Source: Xanthomonas theicola (GTDB lineage: Bacteria; Pseudomonadota; Gammaproteobacteria; Xanthomonadales; Xanthomonadaceae). Taken from it: 64,000 nt of DNA. This document shows positions 22,263 to 39,916 of the stretch, piece after piece (within the stretch, counting starts at the first letter, position 1; each line of letters starts with the position of its first letter). The stretch is taken from NCBI RefSeq assembly GCF_014236795.1, contig NZ_CP049017.1, forward strand, positions 3,388,001 through 3,452,000, written 5' to 3'. A model generated the notes under the pieces. That model did not search any database. It worked only from the letters and a program-made list of their open reading frames with translations, and was not told the origin of the DNA. The translations under genes and the position numbers were made by a program.

Positions 22263-23612
22263 TTTCTGAGCTGCCTATGCGGCAGTGAACGACATCCGGC
22301 AGGTGTTCGAGGGTTTCGACCTTTTCTGAGCTACCTATGCGGCAGTGAACCCGGATTTCTCGCCGCCCAGGGCGGCCAGTACTTTCTGAGCTGCCTATGC
22401 GGCAGTGAACGACCAGTCGCCGGGTGTCAACCGAATCTTCCTTTTCTGAGCTGCCTATGTGGCAGTGAACCCGTTCGTTCGGCTTCGAGATCGTTGCCTA
22501 TGTTTCTTAGCTGCCTATGCGGCAGTGAACGCTGGTGATGACCCTGGCCCGATCGTGGTTGCTTTCTGAGCTGCCTATGCGGCAGTGAACGTGTGGTGCG
22601 GCGGGAAGTGCTCGATGATCCATTTCTGAGCTGCCTATGCGGCAGTGAACTGGAAACCGGACAAGACCACGACCCTGATCAATTTCTGAGCTGCCTATGC
22701 GGCAGTGAACTTGCAGCGATGGCTGCTTTCTCTTTCTCGGAGTTTCTGAGCTGCCTATGCGGCAGTGAACTCGAAGCCGCTCATGGCTGGACCTGCACGA
22801 ATTTCTGAGCTGCCTATGCGGCAGTGAACCGCAAGCTGGGCAGATTCATCGGCACCGCAACTTTCTGAGCTGCCTATGCGGCAGTGAACGTGGACGTAGA
22901 TCACGCCGCGCGCCGCGGGCATTTCTGAGCTGCCTATGCGGCAGTGAACGCACAGCGGCGCACCGGCATCATCCGGGCCAATTTCTGAGCTGCCTATGCG
23001 GCAGTGAACAAGAACGAAATTGAGACTAATATCGCACCCAAGTTTCTGAGCTGCCTATGCGGCAGTGAACTTACCGCGCGCGCCGACGTACATGGGCGTG
23101 CTTTTCTGAGCTGCCTATGCGGCAGTGAACGACAGCCGCTTAGCTGTACGGCTGTCGAAATTTTTCTGAGCTGCCTATGCGGCAGTGAACTCGCAGGGCG
23201 GTGACCTCGCCAGGGCTTCGATTTTCTGAGCTGCCTATGCGGCAGTGAACGCAACTTGTTGCAAGTCCTGATCGATCACAAGTTTCTGAGCTGCCTATGC
23301 GGCAGTGAACACCTCATTGAACGGCTTGCGCAGCATGTCGTATTTCTGAGCTGCCTATGCGGCAGTGAACTGCCTGGTTGCGTGATGTCGGTACGAACAT
23401 ACGTTTCTGAGCTGCCTATGCGGCAGTGAACTCCTTGTTCCGGTTGTGGAGCATGTCCACGATTTTCTGAGCTGCCTATGCGGCAGTGAACCAGCGCTGG
23501 CCGGACGGCGTGCCGGTGGACCATTTCTGAGCTGCCTATGCGGCAGTGAACGCCTGGGTGATCAGCTTGGCCGCCTCGGTGCTGTTTCTGAGCTGCCTAT
23601 GCGGCAGTGAAC
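22263..23612 (-). CRISPR. Type I-F CRISPR array, leader-distal segment (23 repeats)
   Basis: 23 copies of a 28-base repeat spaced by 31-33 (mostly 32) bases. Read on the minus strand the repeat starts GTTCACTGCCGCATAGGCAG and ends CTCAGAAA, with the CTGCC/GGCAG stem cut by Csy4. Direction and the adjacent csy genes place the leader at the right, so this is the older end. Consistent with that, repeats at 22323, 22443 and 22503 carry single base changes while the rest are uniform. The last spacer here is split by a 4.1-kb nest of insertion sequences and resumes at 27697. Peptide-like frames reading FLSCLCGSE repeatedly are artefacts of the 60-base period. Confidence 0.98.
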
Positions 23613-23621
23613 TAGGGCCTG

Positions 23622-24650: not shown

Positions 24651-25507
24651 GAGCGTGTTATGAACTTTGAAGGATGGTAGCGGCGTTGCTGAGCATGAGC
24701 ACGGTGAAGACGACGAAGTGCAAGCCAGCCAAGGTTTCCGGCAAGCGCTCATAGTCGCGTGCCAATCGTCGGAATCGGTTGACCCAGCCGAAGCTGCGTT
24801 CGACGACCCAGCGCCGAGGAAGCAAGACGAATCCTTTCTTGGCTTCGGGAAGTTTCACCACGTGCAGTTCGATTCCTTCTGCCTGCGCGGCTTGCGCCGG
24901 CTCCTGCCCGGTGTAGCCTTGATCCACGAACGCCAGTTTTACCGTATCGCCCGTGACATGTTGCACCTCTTGCGCCAGCGAGCGCACCTGAGCGCGTTCT
25001 TGCTCGTCGGCAGGTGTGACTTGCACTGCAAGCAAATATCCGAGCGTGTCCACCGCCATATGCACCTTGCTGCCCTTCTTGCGCTTATAGCCGTCGTAGC
25101 CTGCACGTGTGCCGCTCTCGCAGGTGGATTGCAGCGTCCGCCCGTCCAGGATGACAGCACTGGGTTGGCCATGTCTGCCTTGGGCAACACGCAGGATGGA
25201 ACGCAGGTCGTTGACCATGGCTTCAAAGCAGCCCGCCTGCAGCCAGCGTTGTGTCTGTTGGTAGACCGCTTCCCATGGCGGGAAGTCCTTGGGCAAAAGG
25301 CGCCATGGCGCTCCAGCACGTGCCATCCAGCGCAGCGCATTGAACATTGCCCGCAGCTCGTACTTGCGCTGCGGAGCGTGCTCGGTCATCAGGCTCAGGT
25401 AAGGCGCTGCGAACGCCCACTCTTCGTCGGAAATGTCGGTCGGATATGGGCGTTTGCTCTGCATCCCGCTACGATAGCCGGATCGACTCAAAGTTCATAA
25501 CACGCTC
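24651..25507 (-). mobile_element. IS5-family element (857 bp) inside the IS3
   Basis: Bounded by perfect 20-bp inverted repeats GAGCGTGTTATGAACTTTGA (24651-24670 and 25488-25507) and a TA duplication (24649-24650, 25508-25509). It carries one intact transposase gene on the minus strand and is the youngest insertion in this branch of the nest. Confidence 0.93.
24658..25491 (-). CDS. IS5-family transposase, intact
   Basis: 277-residue single-frame transposase with the DUF4096-like N-terminal domain (YPTDISDEEWAFAAPYLSLM, WMARAGAPWRLLPKDFPPWE) and the DDE core: AVILDGRTLQSTCESGTRAG (first D), KLAFVDQGYTGQEPAQAA (second D) and RRWVVERSFGWVNRFRRLAR (E). The protein spans almost the whole element, as usual for single-gene members. 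It appears able to be expressed and active, unlike the three neighbouring transposases it sits among. Confidence 0.92.
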   Translation of the reverse strand: MSRSGYRSGMQSKRPYPTDISDEEWAFAAPYLSLMTEHAPQRKYELRAMFNALRWMARAGAPWRLLPKDFPPWEAVYQQTQRWLQAGCFEAMVNDLRSILRVAQGRHGQPSAVILDGRTLQSTCESGTRAGYDGYKRKKGSKVHMAVDTLGYLLAVQVTPADEQERAQVRSLAQEVQHVTGDTVKLAFVDQGYTGQEPAQAAQAEGIELHVVKLPEAKKGFVLLPRRWVVERSFGWVNRFRRLARDYERLPETLAGLHFVVFTVLMLSNAATILQSS

Positions 25508-26460: not shown

Positions 26461-27622
26461 GGATAGTCTGATCAACGCGGTCGGAGGATGAGGCAAGCCA
26501 TATCGACCACGCCCACGGCGCTCAGACCCTCGGTTTTTCGCCGTTTCCGGCGCATTTCCGGGGTATTTCCCGGATTACAGGCACACCCTCCCCACGACAG
26601 GCAGCAACTGCTTTCGCTTCAGCCACAGGTTCGACAGCGCAAACAGCGTCAGCACTTGCGCCGTGTTCTTCGCCAGGCCGCGATAGCGCACCTTGACGTA
26701 GCCAAACTGGCGCTTGATCACCCGGAACGGATGCTCCACCTTCGCCCTCAGGCTGGCCTTGGCGTGCTCCCAGCGCTGTGCCCACTTCAATTCGCGCTTG
26801 CTCTTGATCTGCTTCAGCTTCGAGGGCTTCTCCGCGATCAGATAGCGCAGCTTGCGCTTGCTCGCCATCTCCTCGCGCTTGGCCAGCCCGGTGTAGCCGC
26901 TGTCGCCGCATACCGTGTCTTCCTTGCCGTGCAGCAGCTTGTGCGCCTGGGTGATATCTGCGGCGTTGGCCGCCGTGCATTCCAAGTGGTGCACCAGCCC
27001 GGACTCATCGTCCACGCCGATGTGCGCTTTCATCCCGAAGTAGTACTGATTGCCCTTCTTGGTCTGGTGCATTTCCGGGTCGCGCTCGCCGTTCTTGTTC
27101 TTGGTCGAGCTGGGCGCGGCAATGATCGTGGCGTCCACGATGGTGCCGCCGCGCAGGCTCTGGCCCTTGCGCGATAGGTGCGCGTTGACCCGGTTGAACA
27201 GCGTGCGCGCCAGATCGTGCGTCTCCAGCAACCGGCGGAAGTTGAGGATCGTGGTCTCGTCCGGCACCTCATCCAACCCGCCGATCCTGGCGAAACGGCG
27301 CATCGACGCCGTGTCGTACAAGGCTTCTTCCGCGCCCGGGTCGCTCAGTGCGTACCACTGCTGCAGAAAGTGGATGCGCAGCATTGTCTCCAGCGGGTAC
27401 GGCTGACGGCCCGGATGGCCCGACTTCGGATAGTGCGGCGCGATCAGCGCCAGCAGGTCTTTCCACGGCACCACCTGATCCATCTCGGCCAGCAACCTTT
27501 CGCGCCGCGTCTGCTTGCGCTTGCCGTTGTACTCCGCGTCGCCGAAAGACAATTGCATCGTCGTTGTCCTGTTGGGCTTTGTACGATTGTCGCAGGATCA
27601 GAGGGAGTTGTTCAGACCATCC
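26461..27622 (-). mobile_element. IS5 element copy 1 (1162 bp)
   Basis: Inserted in IS-A with a TTAG target duplication (26457-26460, 27623-27626), as expected for the YTAR preference of the IS5 subgroup. Ends read GGATAGTCTGATCAAC and, inverted, GGATGGTCTGAACAAC. An identical-length copy in the opposite orientation lies in the CRISPR leader at 29884-31045, so the two copies form an inverted pair flanking 35 CRISPR repeats. Confidence 0.95.
26575..27558 (-). CDS. IS5 transposase, copy 1
   Basis: 327 residues, identical in translation to copy 2 at 29948-30931. N-terminal LSFGDAEYNGKRKQTRRERL and PHYPKSGHPGRQPYPLETML precede the DDE core: GGTIVDATIIAAPSSTKNKN (D), DTVCGDSGYTGLAKREEM (D), and ASLRAKVEHPFRVIKRQFGY (E). 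Typical of the IS5 subgroup. Apparently intact, hence the element could be active. Confidence 0.95.
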   Translation of the reverse strand: MQLSFGDAEYNGKRKQTRRERLLAEMDQVVPWKDLLALIAPHYPKSGHPGRQPYPLETMLRIHFLQQWYALSDPGAEEALYDTASMRRFARIGGLDEVPDETTILNFRRLLETHDLARTLFNRVNAHLSRKGQSLRGGTIVDATIIAAPSSTKNKNGERDPEMHQTKKGNQYYFGMKAHIGVDDESGLVHHLECTAANAADITQAHKLLHGKEDTVCGDSGYTGLAKREEMASKRKLRYLIAEKPSKLKQIKSKRELKWAQRWEHAKASLRAKVEHPFRVIKRQFGYVKVRYRGLAKNTAQVLTLFALSNLWLKRKQLLPVVGRVCL

Positions 27623-27728
27623 TTAGGGAAAATTGTGCTGGCGTGATCTCCATGCCCGATAGTTTAAACGCTCGGGCCATTAGTGTTAACAGGCCCTAGC
27701 TCAGGTGCTCGCCGATCTGCTCTACCAA

Positions 27729-29797
27729 TTTCTGAGCTGCCTATGCGGCAGTGAACGCGGGCAGCCGCTGCCGGCGCGCAGCGAGCCATTTCTGAGCTGC
27801 CTATGCGGCAGTGAACGCCATGGGTAAGACCGCGTTCATGCTCGGCCTTTTCTGAGCTGCCTATGCGGCAGTGAACGCAGACGCCATCGTTGAGAACAAG
27901 CCAGAACAGTTTCTGAGCTGCCTATGCGGCAGTGAACTCTGCGCAGCTTTCTTCACCAGCGCTTGCAGCTTTCTGAGCTGCCTATGCGGCAGTGAACGGT
28001 CATTGTCGTTACTCCTGCCTGCCACCGGATTTCTGAGCTGCCTATGCGGCAGTGAACGAGGTGACCCCCAGCAAGCGCGGCGGCCGGTGTTTCTGAGCTG
28101 CCTATGCGGCAGTGAACCCGTGACGGCCGGCTGAGCGGTGTCAACCAGGTTTCTGAGCTGCCTATGCGGCAGTGAACGGAAACCAAGAGCGGCAATCGTG
28201 AGATTAACTTTTCTGAGCTGCCTATGCGGCAGTGAACCTTCAACGGGCTGCACGGCCAGCGCCGCATGTTTTCTGAGCTGCCTATGCGGCAGTGAACAGC
28301 ACGCCCAGCGCGACGACCAGGCGCAGCCATTTCTGAGCTGCCTATGCGGCAGTGAACATGTGCTCGCCGTCGCACTACTTGAGCGGTACTTTCTGAGCTG
28401 CCTATGCGGCAGTGAACGTGGACCGCCTGCCGGGCATTCAGGCCGCGCCTTTCTGAGCTGCCTATGCGGCAGTGAACGTCCTCAAGGATGAATACCTGGA
28501 TGTCATATGTTTCTGAGCTGCCTATGCGGCAGTGAACCTTACCGCTGGCGTCCGGGTAGATCGTGATCGTTTCTGAGCTGCCTATGCGGCAGTGAACGGA
28601 GGTCGGCGTGATCCGGCTCACTCTCCCGTTTTCTGAGCTGCCTATGCGGCAGTGAACTCCGACGCGTTCGGCAAAGTGCGTTACGGACTTTTCTGAGCTG
28701 CCTATGCGGCAGTGAACGCTTCACAGTTGGACCTCGCGGATGAGCTTGCTTTCTGAGCTGCCTATGCGGCAGTGAACGACCTCCTGCGGATCCGGCAGCG
28801 TGTCGAACATTTCTGAGCTGCCTATGCGGCAGTGAACGGCACGTACATCAACCCGTCCTTCATCGGCAATTTCTGAGCTGCCTATGCGGCAGTGAACGAT
28901 GCGCCGATCTACTGTCTCCTCTGGCGTGATTTCTGAGCTGCCTATGCGGCAGTGAACCCCACGGTCCGCGGACGCTCAGCAAGCAGATTTTTCTGAGCTG
29001 CCTATGCGGCAGTGAACCTGAGTATCTGGCTGATCGGAGGGCGGCATTTTTTCTGAGCTGCCTATGCGGCAGTGAACTCTCCGCCTTACGCCAGAGGTGC
29101 TTTTGTCTTTTTCTGAGCTGCCTATGCGGCAGTGAACGTTCGAAACGGATGACGGTCGGAGCAGGATGTTTTCTGAGCTGCCTATGCGGCAGTGAACTGA
29201 GCGTGTCATGGGAGGACGGTTTTACACCTTTTCTGAGCTGCCTATGCGGCAGTGAACAGCCCGTACACTCTGATACCGCCTGTCCCGTTTTTCTGAGCTG
29301 CCTATGCGGCAGTGAACGTCTTCTGATCCGGCATGACGTCTTCTTTGCATTTCTGAGCTGCCTATGCGGCAGTGAACGTGATCGCCGGCGCCCGCTCGCT
29401 GATCGAGCTTTTCTGAGCTGCCTATGCGGCAGTGAACCTCTGGCCCACGCCGAGGACGCAGTGCTTGCCTTTCTGAGCTGCCTATGCGGCAGTGAACCCC
29501 GCCGGATGGCAGGGCTTGGCTGTGGTTTCTTTCTGAGCTGCCTATGCGGCAGTGAACTCGGCTCCTGAGCCTGAGCGGGCGGCCCAGTTTTTCTGAGCTG
29601 CCTATGCGGCAGTGAACCGAGCCCTGTTCGAGTCAGGGCGCCGCCAGCGTTTCTGAGCTGCCTATGCGGCAGTGAACTCGATACCGCCGATGACGCCCAC
29701 GGCCGGCGTTTTCTGAGCTGCCTATGCGGCAGTGAACATCAGGCAGCGGCAACCCGCAGGTCTTGAGTCTTTCTGAGCTGCCTATGCGGCAGTGAAC
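27729..29797 (-). CRISPR. Type I-F CRISPR array, leader-proximal segment (35 repeats)
   Basis: 35 repeats of the same 28-base unit, all in the same orientation as the distal segment, with spacers of 32 bases except one of 33 (27877-27909). The repeats show no degeneracy, as expected for the leader-proximal, newer part. The leader-adjacent repeat is 29770-29797. Together with the distal segment there are 58 repeats and 57 spacers, counting the one split by IS-A. Transcription would run leftwards, the direction of the csy operon upstream. An IS5 copy separates the array from the rest of its leader. Confidence 0.98.
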
Positions 29798-29883: not shown

Positions 29884-31045
29884 GGATGGTCTGAACAACT
29901 CCCTCTGATCCTGCGACAATCGTACAAAGCCCAACAGGACAACGACGATGCAATTGTCTTTCGGCGACGCGGAGTACAACGGCAAGCGCAAGCAGACGCG
30001 GCGCGAAAGGTTGCTGGCCGAGATGGATCAGGTGGTGCCGTGGAAAGACCTGCTGGCGCTGATCGCGCCGCACTATCCGAAGTCGGGCCATCCGGGCCGT
30101 CAGCCGTACCCGCTGGAGACAATGCTGCGCATCCACTTTCTGCAGCAGTGGTACGCACTGAGCGACCCGGGCGCGGAAGAAGCCTTGTACGACACGGCGT
30201 CGATGCGCCGTTTCGCCAGGATCGGCGGGTTGGATGAGGTGCCGGACGAGACCACGATCCTCAACTTCCGCCGGTTGCTGGAGACGCACGATCTGGCGCG
30301 CACGCTGTTCAACCGGGTCAACGCGCACCTATCGCGCAAGGGCCAGAGCCTGCGCGGCGGCACCATCGTGGACGCCACGATCATTGCCGCGCCCAGCTCG
30401 ACCAAGAACAAGAACGGCGAGCGCGACCCGGAAATGCACCAGACCAAGAAGGGCAATCAGTACTACTTCGGGATGAAAGCGCACATCGGCGTGGACGATG
30501 AGTCCGGGCTGGTGCACCACTTGGAATGCACGGCGGCCAACGCCGCAGATATCACCCAGGCGCACAAGCTGCTGCACGGCAAGGAAGACACGGTATGCGG
30601 CGACAGCGGCTACACCGGGCTGGCCAAGCGCGAGGAGATGGCGAGCAAGCGCAAGCTGCGCTATCTGATCGCGGAGAAGCCCTCGAAGCTGAAGCAGATC
30701 AAGAGCAAGCGCGAATTGAAGTGGGCACAGCGCTGGGAGCACGCCAAGGCCAGCCTGAGGGCGAAGGTGGAGCATCCGTTCCGGGTGATCAAGCGCCAGT
30801 TTGGCTACGTCAAGGTGCGCTATCGCGGCCTGGCGAAGAACACGGCGCAAGTGCTGACGCTGTTTGCGCTGTCGAACCTGTGGCTGAAGCGAAAGCAGTT
30901 GCTGCCTGTCGTGGGGAGGGTGTGCCTGTAATCCGGGAAATACCCCGGAAATGCGCCGGAAACGGCGAAAAACCGAGGGTCTGAGCGCCGTGGGCGTGGT
31001 CGATATGGCTTGCCTCATCCTCCGACCGCGTTGATCAGACTATCC
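29884..31045 (+). mobile_element. IS5 element copy 2 (1162 bp) in the CRISPR leader
   Basis: Ends GGATGGTCTGAACAAC (29884) and, inverted, GGATAGTCTGATCAAC (to 31045), with CTAA duplicated at 29880-29883 and 31046-31049. It lies between csy4 and the first CRISPR repeat. It therefore separates the array from the leader DNA that carries a consensus IHF site, and may block or replace the array promoter. Opposite orientation to copy 1. Confidence 0.96.
29948..30931 (+). CDS. IS5 transposase, copy 2
   Basis: 327 residues, translation identical to the transposase at 26575-27558, with the same DDE motifs (VDATIIAAPSS, CGDSGYTGLAK, KVEHPFRVIKRQ). The identity of two complete copies implies recent transposition. 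Transcribed away from the array, toward csy4. Confidence 0.95.
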   Translation: MQLSFGDAEYNGKRKQTRRERLLAEMDQVVPWKDLLALIAPHYPKSGHPGRQPYPLETMLRIHFLQQWYALSDPGAEEALYDTASMRRFARIGGLDEVPDETTILNFRRLLETHDLARTLFNRVNAHLSRKGQSLRGGTIVDATIIAAPSSTKNKNGERDPEMHQTKKGNQYYFGMKAHIGVDDESGLVHHLECTAANAADITQAHKLLHGKEDTVCGDSGYTGLAKREEMASKRKLRYLIAEKPSKLKQIKSKRELKWAQRWEHAKASLRAKVEHPFRVIKRQFGYVKVRYRGLAKNTAQVLTLFALSNLWLKRKQLLPVVGRVCL

Positions 31046-31092: not shown

Positions 31093-31659
31093 TCAGAACC
31101 AGGGAACGGTTGCCTCATGACTGAGGCCATAGCGGTTGAATGGACCTTGCCGGGCTTGCGGCAGTAACGGTCCATGCCGAATGAACAACGGAAAGGCCGC
31201 CTGGCCCGTGCTTCGGCTGCCGAGGGTGACGAAGGGCAACCGGAGTCGCTCGGCCGCCGCCTCGGGGAGGCGTTCGGCTGCGGTCGCGGCGTCCCAGCCA
31301 TGCCGGCGCATGGCGCGGCGCCGAAGGCGCGCAGGGCTGCTCTTGGCTTGGACACGCGTCACCTGCCGGTGCGAGCTTCCGGCAGGCACCAGGGCAACGC
31401 CGGAAAGCGATAGGTGCTCGCCGATGCCCTTGAGCCAGGGCGTTGCCATCAGTCGCTCCAATGCAGACTCCGCGCCGTGCAGGCGCAGATGCGAGCCCAG
31501 GCTTGGCGCCGTGTCGTCGTGGCCAGGGAAGCTGACGCCTATCTGTGTGGTGTCCAGTTCCACCAACCCCCGGTGCAGGCGTGCGTACAGGGCCGCCAAT
31601 AGGTGATGGGCGGCGGTGTCGGGGTCGGGCCTGAGGTGGAGATCAAGATAGTGCTGCAT
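31093..31659 (-). CDS. cas6f: Cas6f/Csy4 crRNA-processing endoribonuclease
   Basis: 188 residues. Cuts the I-F repeat at the base of its hairpin and stays bound as the head of the Csy complex. It starts QHYLDLHLRPDP and aligns by eye with the Pseudomonas protein. The catalytic histidine is at residue 29 (ALYARLHRGLV), the arginine-rich helix is SSPARLRRRAMRRHG, the serine strand is TLGSRSTGQAAFPLFIRHG, and the end is RYGLSHEATVPWF. Length matches the family (187). It is the last gene of csy1-csy2-csy3-csy4, nine bases after csy3, and directly precedes the leader. Confidence 0.96.
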   Translation of the reverse strand: MQHYLDLHLRPDPDTAAHHLLAALYARLHRGLVELDTTQIGVSFPGHDDTAPSLGSHLRLHGAESALERLMATPWLKGIGEHLSLSGVALVPAGSSHRQVTRVQAKSSPARLRRRAMRRHGWDAATAAERLPEAAAERLRLPFVTLGSRSTGQAAFPLFIRHGPLLPQARQGPFNRYGLSHEATVPWF

Positions 31660-31668
31660 CGTGCCACC

Positions 31669-32718
31669 TCAACCTGCGTCGCCGAACACGCCGCCGCGGA
31701 TCAGCGTGGCGATGACGAAATGCTGCTGCTCCACGTCCGGCGCCTTGTCCTTGATCACCCAGGCGTCGAGCAGGTTGTAGAAATCCAGTTTCTCCTTGGG
31801 TTGACGGTAGGCTTTGCCTTGCGTGGTGACCGAGCCGTAGGGCTCGATGGCGATGGCGCCGTTTTCGTCGACGCCGGGATACCAGGTGTCGATCGTTCGC
31901 AAGGCATTGCCGATCTTCTGCGAATGGATCGCGGCCACGGCCTTGGCGCCTTCGCCGACGGCATAGAGCGTCTTGCTCTTGTCGCCACGGCCTCGCTCAA
32001 GGATCAGTTCTTGCGAGGGGAACACTTCCTGCCCGGCGCCGAGGCGGACGAAGGCCGTGACGTGCAGCAGCACATGCGCGCGGCCTGCCAGCCCGGCGCC
32101 GATCAACTCCGCCAGTGCCTGCAGGGCGTCGGTTTCGGCGTCCGGCGGGGTCAGGGTGCGCAGCGCGTGGTCGTGCGCCTGGAAGCTCCATTGCGCGGCG
32201 GCACTGCCGTCGCGCAGGTGGACCACCTGTACGTCGACCTGCTCGGCGCCGATCCGATTGCGCCACAGGAAACGGCCATTGGCCAGGTTGGCGGCGTAGC
32301 GCCGGGCCAGTTCGCCGAAGCCGTGCTGCTGCACATAGCCGCCGACGGTGGCGAGGAGCTTCCTGCGGTAGTCGGCGTCGTTGCAGGCCGAGGGTTCGCC
32401 GGCACCACCGAGCACGCGCAGGGTGAACTGTACTTTCAGCGTATCGGCATCCAGCGGCAACGCGGCCACGTCCACGGTCTGCAGGTTGGGGTTCTGGATG
32501 GCGGCATCGAGCTTGGCCGGGTCGTTCTGCTCCTTGCTCTTGTCCTTGAGCCGGTTGGAGATGGTGCCGCGCACGGACTTCTCGCGGATCTGCACCGGCT
32601 GCCAGGTGCCTGCATCGCGGCGATCGTTCCAACTGCCGGCGAAGAACAGCGCGTCGGAAGGATCGAGCTTGCGTTCGAAGGCGAGGACGGAGGCGGTCTT
32701 GAGGGTGTCGTTGGCCAT
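31669..32718 (-). CDS. csy3: Csy3/Cas7f backbone subunit of the I-F complex
   Basis: 349 residues. Six copies of this subunit form the crRNA-coating backbone of the type I-F surveillance complex. It begins [20 protein letters not shown] and contains [40 protein letters not shown] and the C-terminal [20 protein letters not shown], all characteristic of Csy3. Length is near the family's usual 340. It follows csy2 after 27 bases and precedes csy4 by nine, consistent with one operon. Reading frame intact. Confidence 0.95.
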
Positions 32719-32745: not shown

Positions 32746-33744
32746 TCAATTGAAGTCGTAGTCCGGCATGCCGGCATCGGTCGCGGGGCGGTAGTCGTTG
32801 CGGCAGCGATACAGCCCGGCATCGGGCTGGCTGTCGGCGTACCAGAGCAATTGTTGCGGGGAGTGCAGCCGGTGCGGGCTGAGCCATTCGCCGGCCGAGT
32901 ACAGGCTTTCGACGAAGCGGAACGGCGTGGCGGCGTCGCGTGCGTTGGCGATGCTGCCGGGCGCATGCAGGTCGCCGAGCGCGCCGTAGCCCACCGGGAT
33001 CGGTACGATCCAGCCGTGGCCGCGGCGGTCGTTGCGCCATTCGCCTTTGCCGCCATCGGCATCCTGCAGGTAGCGCCAGTTGATGCGCGCCAACGACAGC
33101 CACGCGTCCAGCCGGGTGCTGTCGGGCGCATGCGCCTGGAGCTCGGCCAGCCGCGTCTCGAGCAGGTCGTCGCGGGCCACCAGTGCGAAGCCGGGCAGCA
33201 GGCGCAGGCACAGTTTCCGGAAGACTGCGCGCTGGTCGTCCTCGCTGCCGGTCAAGGCGATGGCCTGCGGCTGGCGGCGATGGCGGCCGGCCTGCGGCGG
33301 TGGCAGCACGCTGCCCCCGGCCACGCGCATGCCCGCCAGCAGGTTGGCGACGGTAGCGATGTCCGCTGCCTGGGTGGCCGGATCGCGCAACCCGCGTTCG
33401 CTGTGCACGGCGAACACCAGACTCAGTTCCAGGTGGATGCGGCCTTCCTCGACGATGGCGGCGCTGCCGCCGTCCTTGCCGACCGGGTTGCGGGTGAGCC
33501 GGAACGCCTTGACGAAGCCGCTCTCGGTGACCTGCTCCTGGTGGTCGTGGCAGACCACGCCGACGGCATGGAAGGCGATATCCAGTCCGGCCGCCTGTGT
33601 CTTACGCTCCAATGCCCACATCAGGCCCAGGAAAGCGGTCATCGACGGGAAGCCGTGGGTGAGCGGGCTGGACACGGCGTTGGCGTTCTGTACCCGCAGG
33701 CGCGGCAGCACCAGCAGATGGTCGCATGCCGGGCAGGCCTTCAT
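32746..33744 (-). CDS. csy2: Csy2/Cas5f subunit of the I-F complex
   Basis: 332 residues, the Cas5-type subunit that with Csy1 caps the crRNA 5' handle and reads the PAM. It begins MKACPACDHLLVLPRLRVQN, followed by PLTHGFPSMTAFLGLMWALE, with the later segments GWIVPIPVGYGALGDLH and FVESLYSAGEWLSPHRL typical of Csy2. The start ATG overlaps the csy1 stop as ATGA (33741-33744), so the two are translationally coupled. Reading frame intact. Confidence 0.95.
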   Translation of the reverse strand: MKACPACDHLLVLPRLRVQNANAVSSPLTHGFPSMTAFLGLMWALERKTQAAGLDIAFHAVGVVCHDHQEQVTESGFVKAFRLTRNPVGKDGGSAAIVEEGRIHLELSLVFAVHSERGLRDPATQAADIATVANLLAGMRVAGGSVLPPPQAGRHRRQPQAIALTGSEDDQRAVFRKLCLRLLPGFALVARDDLLETRLAELQAHAPDSTRLDAWLSLARINWRYLQDADGGKGEWRNDRRGHGWIVPIPVGYGALGDLHAPGSIANARDAATPFRFVESLYSAGEWLSPHRLHSPQQLLWYADSQPDAGLYRCRNDYRPATDAGMPDYDFN

Positions 33745-35105: not shown

Positions 35106-35309
35106 GGGAAGTCCTTTTGTTCATTCGCTCTTGAGAGGGCATGTCTGTAGAATCCCCACGGCAGCTTGTCGCTACCGTGAGATGCCGGATGGAGGGGGCT
35201 GCCCTCAATCCGATATGACGAACATGCGATTGCTAGTCACATCCACTTCTCCTTCTGCGCGTCATTCCTCGTGCAATAGGGCCGGTGTCCAATCGGCAAG
35301 CTGCAATGC

Positions 35310-35338
35310 CCTCAGTCCTGCCGCCAGCAGGACTGAGG
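35310..35338 (-). promoter_or_regulatory. 12-bp hairpin at the start of the csy mRNA
   Basis: Perfect 12-bp stem CCTCAGTCCTGC/GCAGGACTGAGG (35310-35321 with 35327-35338) and a 5-base loop, starting within about ten bases downstream of the predicted -10 box. No U-tract follows on either strand, so it is not an obvious terminator. It may protect the 5' end of the csy mRNA or be a regulator site. Confidence 0.5.
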
Positions 35339-35347
35339 ACGCCTACT

Positions 35348-35376
35348 AGTAGACCGAAGACAGCCACCCTTGTCAA
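35348..35376 (-). promoter_or_regulatory. Predicted csy1-4 promoter
   Basis: On the minus strand a perfect -35 TTGACA (35371-35376) is followed after 17 bases by TCTACT (35348-35353; four of six matches to TATAAT). The start of transcription would be near 35341, leaving a leader of about 235 bases before csy1. The -35 box is one base from the CC of the first mini-CRISPR target. Confidence 0.65.
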
Positions 35377-35377
35377 A

Positions 35378-35424
35378 CCATTGCATGATCTGTTTTACCA
35401 TTGCATGATCGGTTTAACTACTGA
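35378..35424 (+). promoter_or_regulatory. Two tandem protospacer-like targets with CC PAMs
   Basis: CC (35378-35379) followed by ATTGCATGATCTGTTTTACC, and CC (35398-35399) followed by ATTGCATGATCGGTTTAACT. Both resemble the mini-CRISPR guide at 35441. The first differs at positions 6, 10 and 17 over 23 bases; the second also at 12, 20 and 22. Position 6 is flipped out in type I crRNA pairing, so the seed is effectively intact. They sit directly upstream of the csy -35 box. Confidence 0.7.
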
Positions 35425-35493
35425 ATAAGTAGCTCAGAAAATTGCGTGACCTGTTTCACCATTCTCATTACTGCCGAAAGGCAGCTCCAAAAA
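35413..35493 (+). ncRNA. Mini-CRISPR encoding a CreR-like regulatory crRNA
   Basis: Degenerate repeat 1 (35413-35440) matches the array repeat at about 21 of 28 bases and ends with the exact 5' handle CTCAGAAA. Its stem CTACT/AGTAG replaces CTGCC/GGCAG by two compensated pairs and keeps a five-base loop. Degenerate repeat 2 (35466-35493) keeps the exact stem CTGCC/GGCAG with a GAAA loop. Between them lies a 25-base guide beginning ATTGCGTGACC (35441-35465), shorter than the array's 32. Orientation is plus, opposite to the csy and array transcripts. Csy4 processing would give handle-guide-hairpin RNA. crRNA-like Cas-regulating RNAs are known in other type I systems; this one is inferred. A weak plus-strand promoter may lie in 35370-35409. 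Confidence 0.75.
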
Positions 35494-35507: not shown

Positions 35508-38500
35508 TCAACGTTTTGCCGCGAACCCAAGCCAAGGGTGATATCGCCACCCTTGCTTGCTCTCAGGCACCTCCACCGTCGCCAGCCGTTCGGCACAGTG
35601 CTGCGGGGAGAGGTCGAGGTGCTCGGCCTGCTCGGCGAGCAAGGCCATCAGGTCGAACTCGCCCCATGGCAAGATGCGCGGGCCGGGATCGAGTCGGACG
35701 GCATGGCGCTGGCTGCGCTCGACGGCGGTATAGAGCGTCTGCCCGCGGCGGACGCCGCTTTCCTCGATGCGGTGCAGCACGAGCTGTTCTTCTTCATCGT
35801 CGGGCAGCAGGACCAGGATGGCCGAGGGCAGCGGGTCGTGGCGAAATGGTTGTTGCTGCGGCAATACGCCGGTCAGCGCAGCCTGCGGGTATTGCCAGGC
35901 GCACGCGGCATCGAGCGGAAACGTCGTGGCACTGCGGCACGAGCCGGACGTGGTGGTACGTGGCTTGGGCAGCATGCAGTCGGCCACGCGCGAGTGCTCC
36001 AGATCCACCATCCGATGCTTGGGCCGCCAATCGGTCTGCGGCGGCGGCTGGATGCGCGGCAACGCGTCGAGCTTCCGGTACTCGTGGGGCCGCAGCAACT
36101 TGTCGAGGCGGTGGGCGACAAGGCGGAAGCGATGGTCGGCGGGTTGGCCCGATTGCTCGAAGCCAGGCCGGACGAAGATCGCGGCAGGTTGGTTGTCCGG
36201 TCCTTTGTCCTGGGCGAAGTGTTGCAGATTGGTGTCGAAGATCAGCACGTTGGGCGCGGTGCCCGGCGTGCGGCGATGGCGCTGCACGCGCCCGGCGAGT
36301 TGGATCAGCGAACGCATCGACGATGGTTCCGCCACGGCCCAGTCCGCATCCCAGTCGCGGCCGACTTCGCACACCGGGCTGGCGAGCACGATGAACACCT
36401 GCTCCCGTTCCGGGCAGGCGTCCAGCGCCGCACGGATCGCGGGCAGGCGATAGACCGCCAGACCGTCGCCGCGGCGATCGAATGCCGCGTCGAGCTGCCG
36501 TTCGATGGCCGAGCGCTGCAGTAACGGGAAGCGCGCGTGGTAGATGCACAAGTGGATGCGGGTGCCTTCCGGGGCGCCGAGCCGGAACAGTGCCTGCGCC
36601 ACGTCGAACAGCGGATCGATGTTGGCCATGCGCACCAGGCCGAAGCTGACGCGCTTGCCGCCGGCCGGATCGGCGTGCGCGTGAGCGGCATGCAGGTCCA
36701 GGCAGGCCGCGCGGACATGCCCGGCGAATTCGGCATGGATCCGTTCGCGCTGGCGCGCCTGGAGCTGCAATGGCAGCAGCGCGCCCCGCCGTAGCGGCTC
36801 GGCCTTCTGCAATCGCACGGCACGTCGGCCGACGAATTGCAGGTGCTGCTGCGCAAAGGAAGTCGTATCGGGACAGGCGCCCGTCTGTACGCCGAATTCG
36901 TCGACCCAGATGCATGGCGTCGCCGCCACCGCGTTCGCGCTGCCGCCGTCGGCGCCGCGGTTGTGCTGGTAGTGCGTGCGTCCGGCGTGGTAGGCCGCGT
37001 ACATCCCTTCGAGCAGTGCCGGCGGCAGTGTTGCCGAGGACAGCAGCACGCGCGTGCCCAGCATTCCAGCCCAGTGCACCAGCCGGGTCAGGGCGGGCAG
37101 GTCGTCCAGATCGTAGTCGTCCAGTTCGTCGAGGATCAGGTCGGCGCTCATCAGCCGCAGCATCGGCGCGATCTGGCGCCCGGCGCGCAGCGATTCGGTG
37201 GCCGGCACCAGGTGGTCCACGGTGCAGACCAGCATCGGCGCGGACAGCAGCCTGCGGATTTCCGGGTCGCGCAGCGCGCGCGACAGCAATGGGTGGTCGG
37301 CGGTCGCGCCCTCGTACAGCACGTGGCTGTCCTCTTCCAGCAGCGACTGCACCGACGCCGAGCCAGTGGATTCGGCTTGCTGTTGGTAGTAATCGAACAG
37401 CGCCTGGCTGGCAGAGCCGCCTACGCGGATGGCCAGTTCGTCGTCGCGCAAGTGCAGGTCGGTCCGATAGCTGCGGCCGGTCTGTAATGTCAGCAAGCGC
37501 AATCCGAGCGCGTAGGTGGCGCGCATGCCGTGTTGCGGATCGGCCAATGCATACAGGATGCGCGCGTTGCCCAGGGTTTTGCCGCAGCCGGTGGACGCCA
37601 TGTTGACGATGAACGCGCCGCGCGCGCGTGCCGCGTCGCGCAGCGCGGCCGCGGCATCGGCCGCCTTGTCCTGCCAGGCGAAGCGGGGATCGGCGCTTCG
37701 CCTGCGCAGGCCACGGTGCTGGGCAAGCCGCGGCAGGTAGCGTTCGAAGCCAGGTAGGGCATGGGCGATCAGGCCGGCGCTGTGGGCCACGCCGAGAAGG
37801 TGTTCGACCAGAGACTGGTTGGGAACGGGGGCGCCGACCCGGTTGCGGGTGGTGTTGGCCATCAGCCAGGCGTCTGCCTGCAGATGCGGCCTGCGTTCGG
37901 GGACGGGCTGGTCGTTCTTGTCCAGCCCCAGTCTGGAATAGGCATGATCGGCCAGCATCAGGCTAAGGCGCGCCAGGTGCATCACGTAGGGATTGCCTAG
38001 CCAGTCGCCGTCGCGGCGCCCGCGCAGTTCGGCCAGACGCTTCGCCAAGCGCGCGGCCTGTGCACGCCACGCCGGCGCGGCGACCGGCAATGGGCCTGCA
38101 GGATTCCAATAAGGCTCGATCCTGGCGAGCTCGGCCGGCTGGCGGACTTCGTTCCAATCGTGTCCGACCAGCGACAGCGGCGCCTCCAGCCACACGGGAT
38201 CGAGGGTGCGAGCACGGTGCCCGAGCCAGTCCTGCGCGCCTTTCTCGTCGACCACGGGGACCAATGGCAGGCGATGGTGCGTCAACACCAGCCAGGCGAT
38301 CGCCGCAGCGAGCGGCGGCAACTGGTCGAACGCGCGCCCGGGCTCGGGATCCAGGCCATCGCGGCGGTAGCGTCCCTCCGCTGTCCAGCCGAGCATGTCG
38401 CTGTCACCCGGATCGGACAGGCGGCGCAGCCAGCCCGCATCGTCGTCCTGGCCGACGAAGGCCTGGAACATGCGCAGCGACACCCATTCGTGGCGGTAGA

Positions 38501-38933
38501 GGTTGCGCTCCTGCAATTGCCCGCGCAGCCGCGCCTGGAAGGCCATGCTGGCCTTGCCCAGGTCGTGCAGCAAGGCGGCCAATTGCGCCAGCAGCCGGAT
38601 GTCTTCGGCGCGATGCCAATCGTTTTCGTCGCCGCGACGCAGGACGTTGCGCATGGTGGCACCTGTCGGCACAGCACCGTGCGCATTGAAGCGGCCAGCG
38701 TCCCCGACCACCCACAACAGTTCGCTATGGTCCAGGCCGCGGATCCAATGGCAAGCGACGGCGGTGTTCTTGCGCGCGGTGCGGCGCAGGAGCTTGTGCA
38801 GGGTATCCAGGCCGGCCTGGGTGATGGGCGTCTGCCAGGTGCGCTCGCCGCGGCGCTCGGCGAACTGGTCGAGGATGCGCCGGGTCTCGGTCAGTGCGCG
38901 CTTGTCGCATTGGGACACCAGCAGAATGTTCAT
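35508..38933 (-). CDS. cas3: Cas2-Cas3 fusion nuclease-helicase (type I-F)
   Basis: 1141 residues. The N-terminal 95 or so residues are a Cas2 domain (MNILLVSQCDKRALTETRRI), the fusion that defines type I-F. The HD nuclease follows (LAALLHDLGKAS, His 123, Asp 124), then the helicase with Walker A MASTGCGKT (near residue 445), motif II DLILDELDDYD (near 600), LLSSATLP and motif VI QLAGRVQRHR (near 877). It degrades DNA found by the Csy complex and joins Cas1 in spacer acquisition. The ATG at 38933 overlaps the cas1 stop (ATGA); the frame is open further upstream but inside cas1. The stop is 14 bases from the mini-CRISPR. Confidence 0.95.
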   Translation of the reverse strand: MNILLVSQCDKRALTETRRILDQFAERRGERTWQTPITQAGLDTLHKLLRRTARKNTAVACHWIRGLDHSELLWVVGDAGRFNAHGAVPTGATMRNVLRRGDENDWHRAEDIRLLAQLAALLHDLGKASMAFQARLRGQLQERNLYRHEWVSLRMFQAFVGQDDDAGWLRRLSDPGDSDMLGWTAEGRYRRDGLDPEPGRAFDQLPPLAAAIAWLVLTHHRLPLVPVVDEKGAQDWLGHRARTLDPVWLEAPLSLVGHDWNEVRQPAELARIEPYWNPAGPLPVAAPAWRAQAARLAKRLAELRGRRDGDWLGNPYVMHLARLSLMLADHAYSRLGLDKNDQPVPERRPHLQADAWLMANTTRNRVGAPVPNQSLVEHLLGVAHSAGLIAHALPGFERYLPRLAQHRGLRRRSADPRFAWQDKAADAAAALRDAARARGAFIVNMASTGCGKTLGNARILYALADPQHGMRATYALGLRLLTLQTGRSYRTDLHLRDDELAIRVGGSASQALFDYYQQQAESTGSASVQSLLEEDSHVLYEGATADHPLLSRALRDPEIRRLLSAPMLVCTVDHLVPATESLRAGRQIAPMLRLMSADLILDELDDYDLDDLPALTRLVHWAGMLGTRVLLSSATLPPALLEGMYAAYHAGRTHYQHNRGADGGSANAVAATPCIWVDEFGVQTGACPDTTSFAQQHLQFVGRRAVRLQKAEPLRRGALLPLQLQARQRERIHAEFAGHVRAACLDLHAAHAHADPAGGKRVSFGLVRMANIDPLFDVAQALFRLGAPEGTRIHLCIYHARFPLLQRSAIERQLDAAFDRRGDGLAVYRLPAIRAALDACPEREQVFIVLASPVCEVGRDWDADWAVAEPSSMRSLIQLAGRVQRHRRTPGTAPNVLIFDTNLQHFAQDKGPDNQPAAIFVRPGFEQSGQPADHRFRLVAHRLDKLLRPHEYRKLDALPRIQPPPQTDWRPKHRMVDLEHSRVADCMLPKPRTTTSGSCRSATTFPLDAACAWQYPQAALTGVLPQQQPFRHDPLPSAILVLLPDDEEEQLVLHRIEESGVRRGQTLYTAVERSQRHAVRLDPGPRILPWGEFDLMALLAEQAEHLDLSPQHCAERLATVEVPESKQGWRYHPWLGFAAKR

Positions 38934-39916
38934 GCTGCGCCCTCGCGCTTCGGCAAGGCCGTCGCCAGCGCCACTTCCTTGAGCGTATCGATCATGAAAT
39001 CCAGCGACTCGCTGCGCGCCAGCGCTTCGATGCAGCGCTGTCGAAACGATCGTTCGTCGTCGCCGCGCATCGCCGACAGGAACGCCTGCGGCAGGATGCT
39101 GGCATCCTTGACCAGGTCGGCAACATCGAACACCAATCCGCCGCGCCGGGTCTTGCCGTGCAGCACCGCCAGCCCATGCGGGAGTCCCAGCACCCATGTC
39201 GCGGTCGCCCCCAGCCCATAGGCGAGATAGTTGCCGTGGTCGAGGAAGCGGTTGGCCGGATCGTTGCCTGTACCGCGCTTGGCACGGGTGAAATCGCCGT
39301 AGCCAGTCGTGTCTACGGCCAGCTTGAACAATGCCTTGGTCAAGCGTGCCTCCTCGGTCAGCAGGGCCGTGTTGTCCTGCGCCAATGCGATGTTCCAGGA
39401 ACTTCTGGCCAGCAGTTCCTGCAGGCGGGCCGCGGGAGGGGCGAAACCGGCCTCCTTGAGCGGACGTAGAAGCCATTGCTCGCCGATGCGCCGGGTACGC
39501 GCTTGTTGGAATGCCTTGGCCGCGCACAACCGCAGGTCGTCATCGAACCAAAACTTGACCCAGGCCTGTAGGTATTCGGTGGGACGGTATTCGCTCTGGG
39601 GAGAGAACCACGCGACCTCGACATCCACTTCATTCGCGGTGAACAGCGGCGTGCCGCCGCCGCCGCAGAAGCCAACCAGCACGCCCGCCCTGGCCAGCTC
39701 GCGCATCGCGGCCTGGGTGATCGAGGTGCCTGTTCCGAGCAACAGCGTCGTGGTGTTCGCAATCGGGATGTTCCAGTACAGCGAACGCTTTCCCGCATCG
39801 GTCACATACTCGACGCGGCCGCCGTTGACCAGCACGCGGCAATGCTGGAGGTAGTAGAGATTCGCTCGTTTGGAATGCAGGATCGTTTTCAGATCCGAAG
39901 CTGCCAGTTCGTCCAT
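38930..39916 (-). CDS. cas1: Cas1 integrase (type I-F)
   Basis: 328 residues, the metal-dependent integrase that inserts new spacers at the leader end, acting with the Cas2 domain of the fusion protein. It begins MDELAASDLKTILHSKRANL with the beta-rich N-terminal domain (YYLQHCRVLVNGGRVEYVTD) and the all-alpha catalytic domain with the I-F features LLGTGTSITQAAMRELARAG, GNYLAYGLGATATWVLGLPH and RRGGLVFDVADLVKDASI. Length matches the family. First gene of the cas1-cas2-3 pair; upstream DNA is full of decayed mobile-element fragments. Intact, so acquisition genes are present even though the leader is split. Confidence 0.95.
   Translation of the reverse strand: MDELAASDLKTILHSKRANLYYLQHCRVLVNGGRVEYVTDAGKRSLYWNIPIANTTTLLLGTGTSITQAAMRELARAGVLVGFCGGGGTPLFTANEVDVEVAWFSPQSEYRPTEYLQAWVKFWFDDDLRLCAAKAFQQARTRRIGEQWLLRPLKEAGFAPPAARLQELLARSSWNIALAQDNTALLTEEARLTKALFKLAVDTTGYGDFTRAKRGTGNDPANRFLDHGNYLAYGLGATATWVLGLPHGLAVLHGKTRRGGLVFDVADLVKDASILPQAFLSAMRGDDERSFRQRCIEALARSESLDFMIDTLKEVALATALPKREGAA

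Follow-up and report, generated by a model that had tools for sequence, protein, structure and literature searches.

Which element occupies the gap between cas2-3 and csy1 in the type I-F CRISPR-Cas locus of Xanthomonas theicola, and what might it control? We analyzed a stretch of 64,000 nucleotides (hereafter the window; positions 3388001-3452000 of the first contig of a 4.79 Mb genome), in which csy1-4 and cas2-3 all lie on the minus strand in open frames, with cas1 upstream of them. The effector genes are csy1 (cas8f, 454 aa, TIGR02564; 33741..35105), csy2 (cas5f; 32746..33744), csy3 (cas7f; 31669..32718) and csy4 (cas6f; 31093..31659), and the open frame at 35508..39527 contains cas2-3, the cas3f model covering its residues 199-1335. 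The consensus repeat, GTTCACTGCCGCATAGGCAGCTCAGAAA, was taken from two canonical I-F arrays on the minus strand (22263..23613 and 27728..29797). Two DDE transposase frames are located between these arrays (24658-25491 and 26575-27558), and a frame of 229 aa located between csy4 and the closer of the two arrays (30329-31018, minus strand) has no Pfam or NCBIfam match. The gap itself measures 402 bases and holds two degenerate repeats, a guide, its targets and a TTGACA box. This mini-CRISPR most likely acts as a switch that regulates itself or holds back a toxin, a type of element described before in other bacteria, and the features described below suggest that the module is probably a type I-F CreTA, consisting of creA and creT.

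Both degenerate repeats are found on the plus strand. The first (psi-R1, 35413..35440) reads TTTAA CTACT GAATA AGTAG CTCAGAAA; its stem is altered by two compensated pairs relative to the consensus, and the 5' handle CTCAGAAA at 35433-35440 is exact. The second (psi-R2, 35466..35493) shows the exact stem CTGCC/GGCAG with a loop one base shorter than the consensus, and its handle has decayed to CTCCAAAA. Between them lies the 25-nt guide of a putative crRNA-like RNA (creA, 35441..35465, plus strand). A previous sequence-only reading had already described the repeats around a 25-base guide, the exact handle, the compensated stem and the intact second stem, all of which agree with the sequence and with the genome's own array repeats. 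Assuming a Csy4 cut at the 3' base of each stem, the mature CreA RNA is predicted to comprise 52 nt with handle, guide and 3' hairpin (35433..35484, plus strand). In a repeat scan of the 64-kb window, the two repeats were the only plus-strand matches at score 21, the next falling below 18. The Rfam family CRISPR-DR4 matched repeat 1 with 27.6 bits (E 4.7e-4), which is under its gathering score of 35, and the Rfam search of the gap gave nothing beyond this repeat. An ordinary array has near-identical repeats and spacers of ~32 nt; here, the guide has 25 nt and both repeats have diverged. Two degenerate repeats with intact hairpins adjoining the effector genes correspond to the arrangement of I-F CreTA.

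The guide finds two targets in tandem, each behind a CC PAM on the plus strand. Target 1 (35380-35402, PAM 35378-35379; 35378..35402 in total) matches it at 20 of 23 bases, with mismatches at positions 6, 10 and 17. Target 2 (35400-35422, PAM 35398-35399; together 35398..35422) is a copy of target 1 at 20-base spacing, overlaps repeat 1 and matches at 14 of the first 18 bases. Our comparison reproduced the previously reported close match at the first site and the poorer one at the second, as well as the position of the first PAM one base from the -35 box TTGACA of a csy1-directed promoter (minus strand, 35376-35371). A weak candidate -10 box, TCTACT (35348..35353, minus strand), follows 17 nt after the -35 box, and the promoter scanner reported no promoter in the gap; promoters were assigned by eye. 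When the first 18 guide bases were shuffled and compared with the 26 CC sites from csy1 to the end of repeat 1, none of 2000 shuffles reached the observed 15/18. A genome search with the pattern CCATTGCNTGANCNGTTT and up to two mismatches returned six places in 4.79 Mb, namely the two window targets as the only ones without mismatch, and the guide itself and three others with two mismatches. A chance match between guide and target is ruled out by these shuffles together with the genome-wide count. The partial match of a guide to a nearby 5'-CC target is a mark of I-F CreTA, and its limited complementarity to a cas promoter, here assigned from sequence only, is a mark of CreR. One 20-base motif is present three times within ~80 bases (35377-35457), as the two targets and the guide, which gives a hint that the guide may have originated by local duplication. 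Target 2 extends into repeat 1 and over a possible promoter of creA, so that CreA could also limit itself.

We further compared the window with csy1 loci from three collections. Matches to csy1 were obtained in 31 of 395 family genomes (30 loci used), in a contig collection (8 loci, 4 of which duplicate family loci) and in 34 of 369 genomes of the class (30 loci used, including the window itself). The pooled sample contained 63 distinct csy1 loci, among which long identical stretches are common only to L023/L028 and to L031-L033. It includes imperfect loci, with L040 and L079 being csy1 fragments at contig ends and L077 having stops in csy1, and the matching genomes outside it are G300 (a fragment, L049), G714 (near full length, under the family cut-off), G721, G506 and G702. 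A mini-CRISPR was called if a first repeat opposite to csy1 had at least 7/8 handle bases (the third being free) and at least 4/5 stem pairs, and targets were sought over the whole stretch to csy1.

A divergent two-repeat mini-CRISPR adjoining csy1 was found in 30 of the 63 loci, the weakest being L068. The remaining 33 loci showed either no candidate (18) or a poor one with 6/8 handle bases (15), whose best CC target matched at 0-10 of 18 bases compared to 11-16 in the 30. Among the latter, repeat 1 keeps the exact handle in 22 loci if the third base is disregarded, and has all five stem pairs in 28 but the consensus stem in only 10, and repeat 2 has the consensus stem in 27 and a handle of at least 7/8 bases in none. 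The conserved parts are therefore those of the mature RNA, bearing in mind that repeat 1 was selected by its handle and repeat 2 by its stem. The guides range from 12 to 33 nt with a median of 24; guides of 12-15 nt, each with a CC target, occur at L027, L034, L035, L038, L059 and L067 and represent very short natural I-F guides. The PAM is directly preceded by TCAA in 14/30 loci. Doubled targets, defined as two CC targets with at least 13/18 matches, were observed in 3/30 loci (the window, L031 and L032), i.e. in two lineages, L031 and L032 being near relatives in one genus. The tandem arrangement, previously regarded as distinctive, is thus uncommon but not unique.

We next compared the guides with their own targets. 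Independent divergence of guide and target in relatives had been named as an outcome that would speak against a functional pair. We observed the opposite: although the guides differ between loci, each of the 30 identified its own CC target in the csy1-upstream region, with 11-16 of 18 matching bases. In 864 guide swaps between loci, not counting swaps among L031-L033, the mean was 8.39/18 (sd 1.23, maximum 13). As many as 27/30 guides scored best at home, the exceptions being L032 and L033, which matched better at their relative L031, and L035, which tied at two loci. Some loci are less striking when taken singly: the numbers of shuffles equalling a locus's own score were 56 per 2000 for L035, 30 for L078 and 10 each for L030 and L068. 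Within the genus only L015 also has the module, and this co-evolution test rests mainly on more distant relatives. Altogether, the comparison strongly supports a crRNA-like RNA by which the Csy complex would be steered to the promoter upstream of csy1.

The mismatches follow a regular pattern. Leaving aside L032 and L033, guide positions 6, 12 and 18 were mismatched in 64/78 cells (24/28, 22/28 and 18/22, respectively), compared to 32/400 cells elsewhere within positions 1-18. For unrelated bases of the same make-up, mismatch rates of 0.83, 0.78 and 0.75 would be expected at these three positions; these bases therefore look free, and the rest appear to be held. Past position 18, about half of the bases are mismatched. 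The window departs from this pattern with its mismatches at 6, 10 and 17. Class 1 effectors flip out every sixth guide base (PMC11127173; PMC12774636), and the periodicity across loci fits, as for flipped-out bases, the binding mode of a type I effector.

The stretch of ~235 nt from the promoter to csy1 contains a Shine-Dalgarno site and an 11-codon mini-ORF, both of which the sequence-only reading had overlooked. On the minus strand, the predicted 5' end of this leader carries a 12-bp hairpin (35310..35338), followed by the Shine-Dalgarno sequence AAGGAG (35249..35254) and a creT-like mini-ORF of 11 codons plus stop (35205..35240; GTG ACT AGC AAT CGC ATG TTC GTC ATA TCG GAT TGA) with a start codon able to lie within a hairpin. 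Ahead of csy1 lies a conserved terminal hairpin (35157-35179) followed by ATTCTA (35153-35148; 35148..35179 overall), and its loop side can pair with 35304-35297. The window resembles I-F CreTA in that the Shine-Dalgarno site and the mini-ORF are divergently oriented and located downstream of the target. Here, the start hairpin is able to form all of the pairs 1-15, 2-14, 3-13 and 4-12; in a single-sequence fold, a longer stem competes for the start codon.

We then screened the loci for start codons that follow a Shine-Dalgarno-like site and allow at least the first three pairs of the hairpin. This filter was positive in 18/30 mini-CRISPR loci, of which 16 were accepted and two (L072 and L073) discounted for their TTG starts; the long leaders of L029, L035 and L037 failed it. 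Among the 33 loci lacking a mini-CRISPR, five were positive (L021, L026, L047, L057 and L063), mostly with weak sites or TTG starts, or in other places. The start hairpin was further assessed in a pairing-blind MAFFT alignment (A1) of 16 leaders that we chose ourselves, with the register kept; it omits the diverged L035 as well as L032 and L033, which are closely related to L031. In this alignment, 84.4% of cells were paired and the covariation score was 0.456, each value being reached by 1/500 shuffles; slid versions scored at most 0.154. Pair 1-15 (n=16) is GC in 10, AU in 4 and GU in 1 leader and unpaired in 1, so that A-starts are accompanied by U15 in 4/4 and G-starts by C15 in 10/11 cases. 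Two of the five measures were no better than shuffles (both-side pair changes, 432/500; further pair types, 410/500). If starts were picked by Shine-Dalgarno strength alone, the first three pairs were found in 7/16 leaders (permutation, 577/20000), which lends weak support, several leaders being mis-registered. Overall, the comparison of these sequences establishes a predicted start-codon hairpin with some covariation.

The module is present in some genomes and absent from close relatives. Within the genus, a csy1 locus beyond a fragment occurs in 5/20 genomes, two of which carry the module. L014 and L015 share 94% Csy1 identity, and the module is in L015 only; this pair would suit a study of gain or loss of the whole module. 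It is likewise missing from L012 and L013 (86% to the window). Presence and absence between such relatives can, like the anatomy of the module and the co-evolution of guide and target, be taken as demonstrated at the level of sequence comparison. Alignment of the window with L015 gave 78.7% identity for the creT block (169 bases) and 69.9% for the cas2-3 end, and none was obtained for creA plus target. DNA matches to the creT block, a search that misses diverged copies, were obtained in 4/390 family genomes, all just upstream of csy1 and 4/4 next to a mini-CRISPR (one, G120, spanning 22 bases only). In I-F CreTA, creT would be expected only together with creA; the looser filter was weakly positive in the five loci named above that lack creA. 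Plasmid and phage collections yielded no match.

How should the module be interpreted? In the simplest alternative, the mini-CRISPR RNA represses the csy promoter, Csy thereby limits its own amount, and the leader is just the 5' untranslated region of csy1. The position of the target at a csy1-directed promoter agrees with such a plain CreR, as do reviews in which regulation of cas genes by crRNA-like RNAs is already in print. Moreover, 11/30 loci pair guide and target without an accepted creT (L016, L018, L034, L048, L064, L067, L068, L072, L073, L077 and L078), several of them with shorter leaders, and these loci look like plain autorepressors of the CreR form. In a CreR system, the region from target to effector gene carries no toxin. 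However, a CreT-like element intervenes between promoter and csy1 in the window as well as in 15 further loci, and the creT block is better conserved than the adjoining cas2-3 end when compared with L015. We therefore consider plain CreR unlikely for the window, and the CreT-like element within the ~235 nt makes CreTA the better filing. The previous proposal that a Csy-bound RNA shuts down csy1-4 is partly supported, namely with respect to a crRNA-like RNA aimed at the csy1-upstream promoter with pairing too short for cleavage, csy1-4 being only a candidate for the repressed unit.

The leader might also be a regulatory RNA of csy1, i.e. an attenuator with a leader peptide instead of a toxin, in which the 5' element pairs with the loop side of the terminal hairpin and the balance would depend on whether the mini-ORF is translated. 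A terminal hairpin with ATTCTA or a similar tail ahead of csy1 was seen in 16 leaders. Across 16 loci of our choice, leaving out L032, L033 and L058, the 5' element paired with its own hairpin loop side with a sum of 104, compared to a mean of 86.6 for shuffled partners (0/20000 as high), and the window leader has a fold z-score of -3.86. Still, the terminator scan of the window gap detected no stem followed by a T run, the start-codon hairpin follows the published toxin geometry, and the loci vary, several pairing over few bases and L015 and L051 over only 4. Taken together, an attenuator appears quite improbable. Finally, both repeats are degenerate, and the locus could be what is left of an ordinary array after decay, its guide matching the site by chance. 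This explanation deserves almost no credence: layout, strand and guide-target pairing are the same in 30/63 csy1 loci, and decay has left the first repeat its handle and the second its stem. We rejected it on this recurrence, the co-evolution and the selective conservation of the repeats.

For the preferred I-F CreTA, we infer transcription, processing, repression and toxicity as follows. The plus-strand mini-CRISPR (creA) would be transcribed toward cas2-3, and Csy4 would cut the transcript into a handle-guide-hairpin RNA that is loaded into the Csy complex. Csy-CreA would then occupy the divergent promoter at its -35 box, where the CC-flanked target is located. In one I-F1 system, effectors bound with spacers from 14 to 176 nt, but Cas2/3 was triggered only if the R-loop reached at least full length (PMC7296934). 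The pairing of the window guide ends at position 23, and with at most ~23 paired bases the R-loop may be too short to trigger Cas2-3, resulting in a transcription block without cutting. This block would first affect the structured leader of ~235 nt, which is similar to the CreT RNA toxin in its Shine-Dalgarno site and in an 11-codon mini-ORF with its start codon in a hairpin. Loss of the Csy complex would release CreT, and cells would thereby depend on csy1-4. As csy1 lies downstream on the same strand, the leader promoter may also feed csy1-4, and the CreTA module perhaps controls these genes as well. That one promoter has two outputs, with Csy-CreA repressing a toxic RNA together with the downstream csy operon, is conceivable but doubtful.

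These findings would place a probable CRISPR-guarding toxin-antitoxin pair in Xanthomonas and its relatives. In addition, the 30 guide-target pairs represent a natural experiment on which I-F guide bases are needed for binding without cutting, with blocks of five held and every sixth base free across pairs, and the relation of autorepressors to addiction modules becomes testable in matched loci that differ by the toxin element. If the two-output reading were true, any loss or block of DNA binding by Csy would simultaneously increase the amount of Csy and harm the cell. A single I-F site would then have two states, CreR and CreTA, and anti-CRISPRs in hosts of this type would be under pressure to prevent cutting but leave binding intact.

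Several known systems invite comparison. A tested I-F1 mini-array is reportedly mentioned in the abstract of a study on CRISPR-derived regulatory RNAs and mini-arrays by Shmakov (NAR, 2023). Our literature search recognised no published description of the Xanthomonas leader, which is no proof of absence. CreR is known for types I-B, I-E and V-A (PMC13131331; also summarised in PMC12737573); the window shares with such regulatory mini-arrays the mini-CRISPR and the limited complementarity to a promoter ahead of the effector genes, and differs by the CreT-like element between promoter and csy1; the 11 loci without an accepted creT fit the CreR form. Racr solitary repeat units are similar as repeat-derived RNAs engaging I-F Cas proteins, but are phage-encoded solitary repeats that inhibit rather than guide (PMC10651486). 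The anti-CRISPR AcrIF12Xal of X. albilineans blocks degradation by I-F1 and not binding, and csy1 is not named in the main text of that paper (PMC10810201); a link between AcrIF12Xal and CreTA is our own idea only.

The closest counterpart is the I-F CreTA of Acinetobacter sp. WCHA45 (PMC10097628). It likewise has a gap of ~400 bp between cas3 and csy1, a divergent creA with two degenerate repeats, a CC-flanked target with three mismatches (6, 11 and 18 there; 6, 10 and 17 in the window), and a Shine-Dalgarno site and mini-ORF with the start codon in a hairpin of the same pairs, and its module is also absent from some relatives. The window differs in that its mini-ORF has 36 nt (33 in the published case), a GTG start and another sequence, its target lies at the -35 side and not downstream of the transcription start, and two targets occur in tandem. 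We found no mention of a terminal hairpin with long-range pairing in the available part of the Acinetobacter account, and toxicity of creT is predicted for the window, compared to an RNA toxin in Acinetobacter (PMC10097628). Among the loci compared here, the mini-ORF of L030 (ATG TTT AGT ACG CAT) is one base off the codons named for Acinetobacter CreT, i.e. TTT second, AGC third and CAT fifth (PMC10097628).
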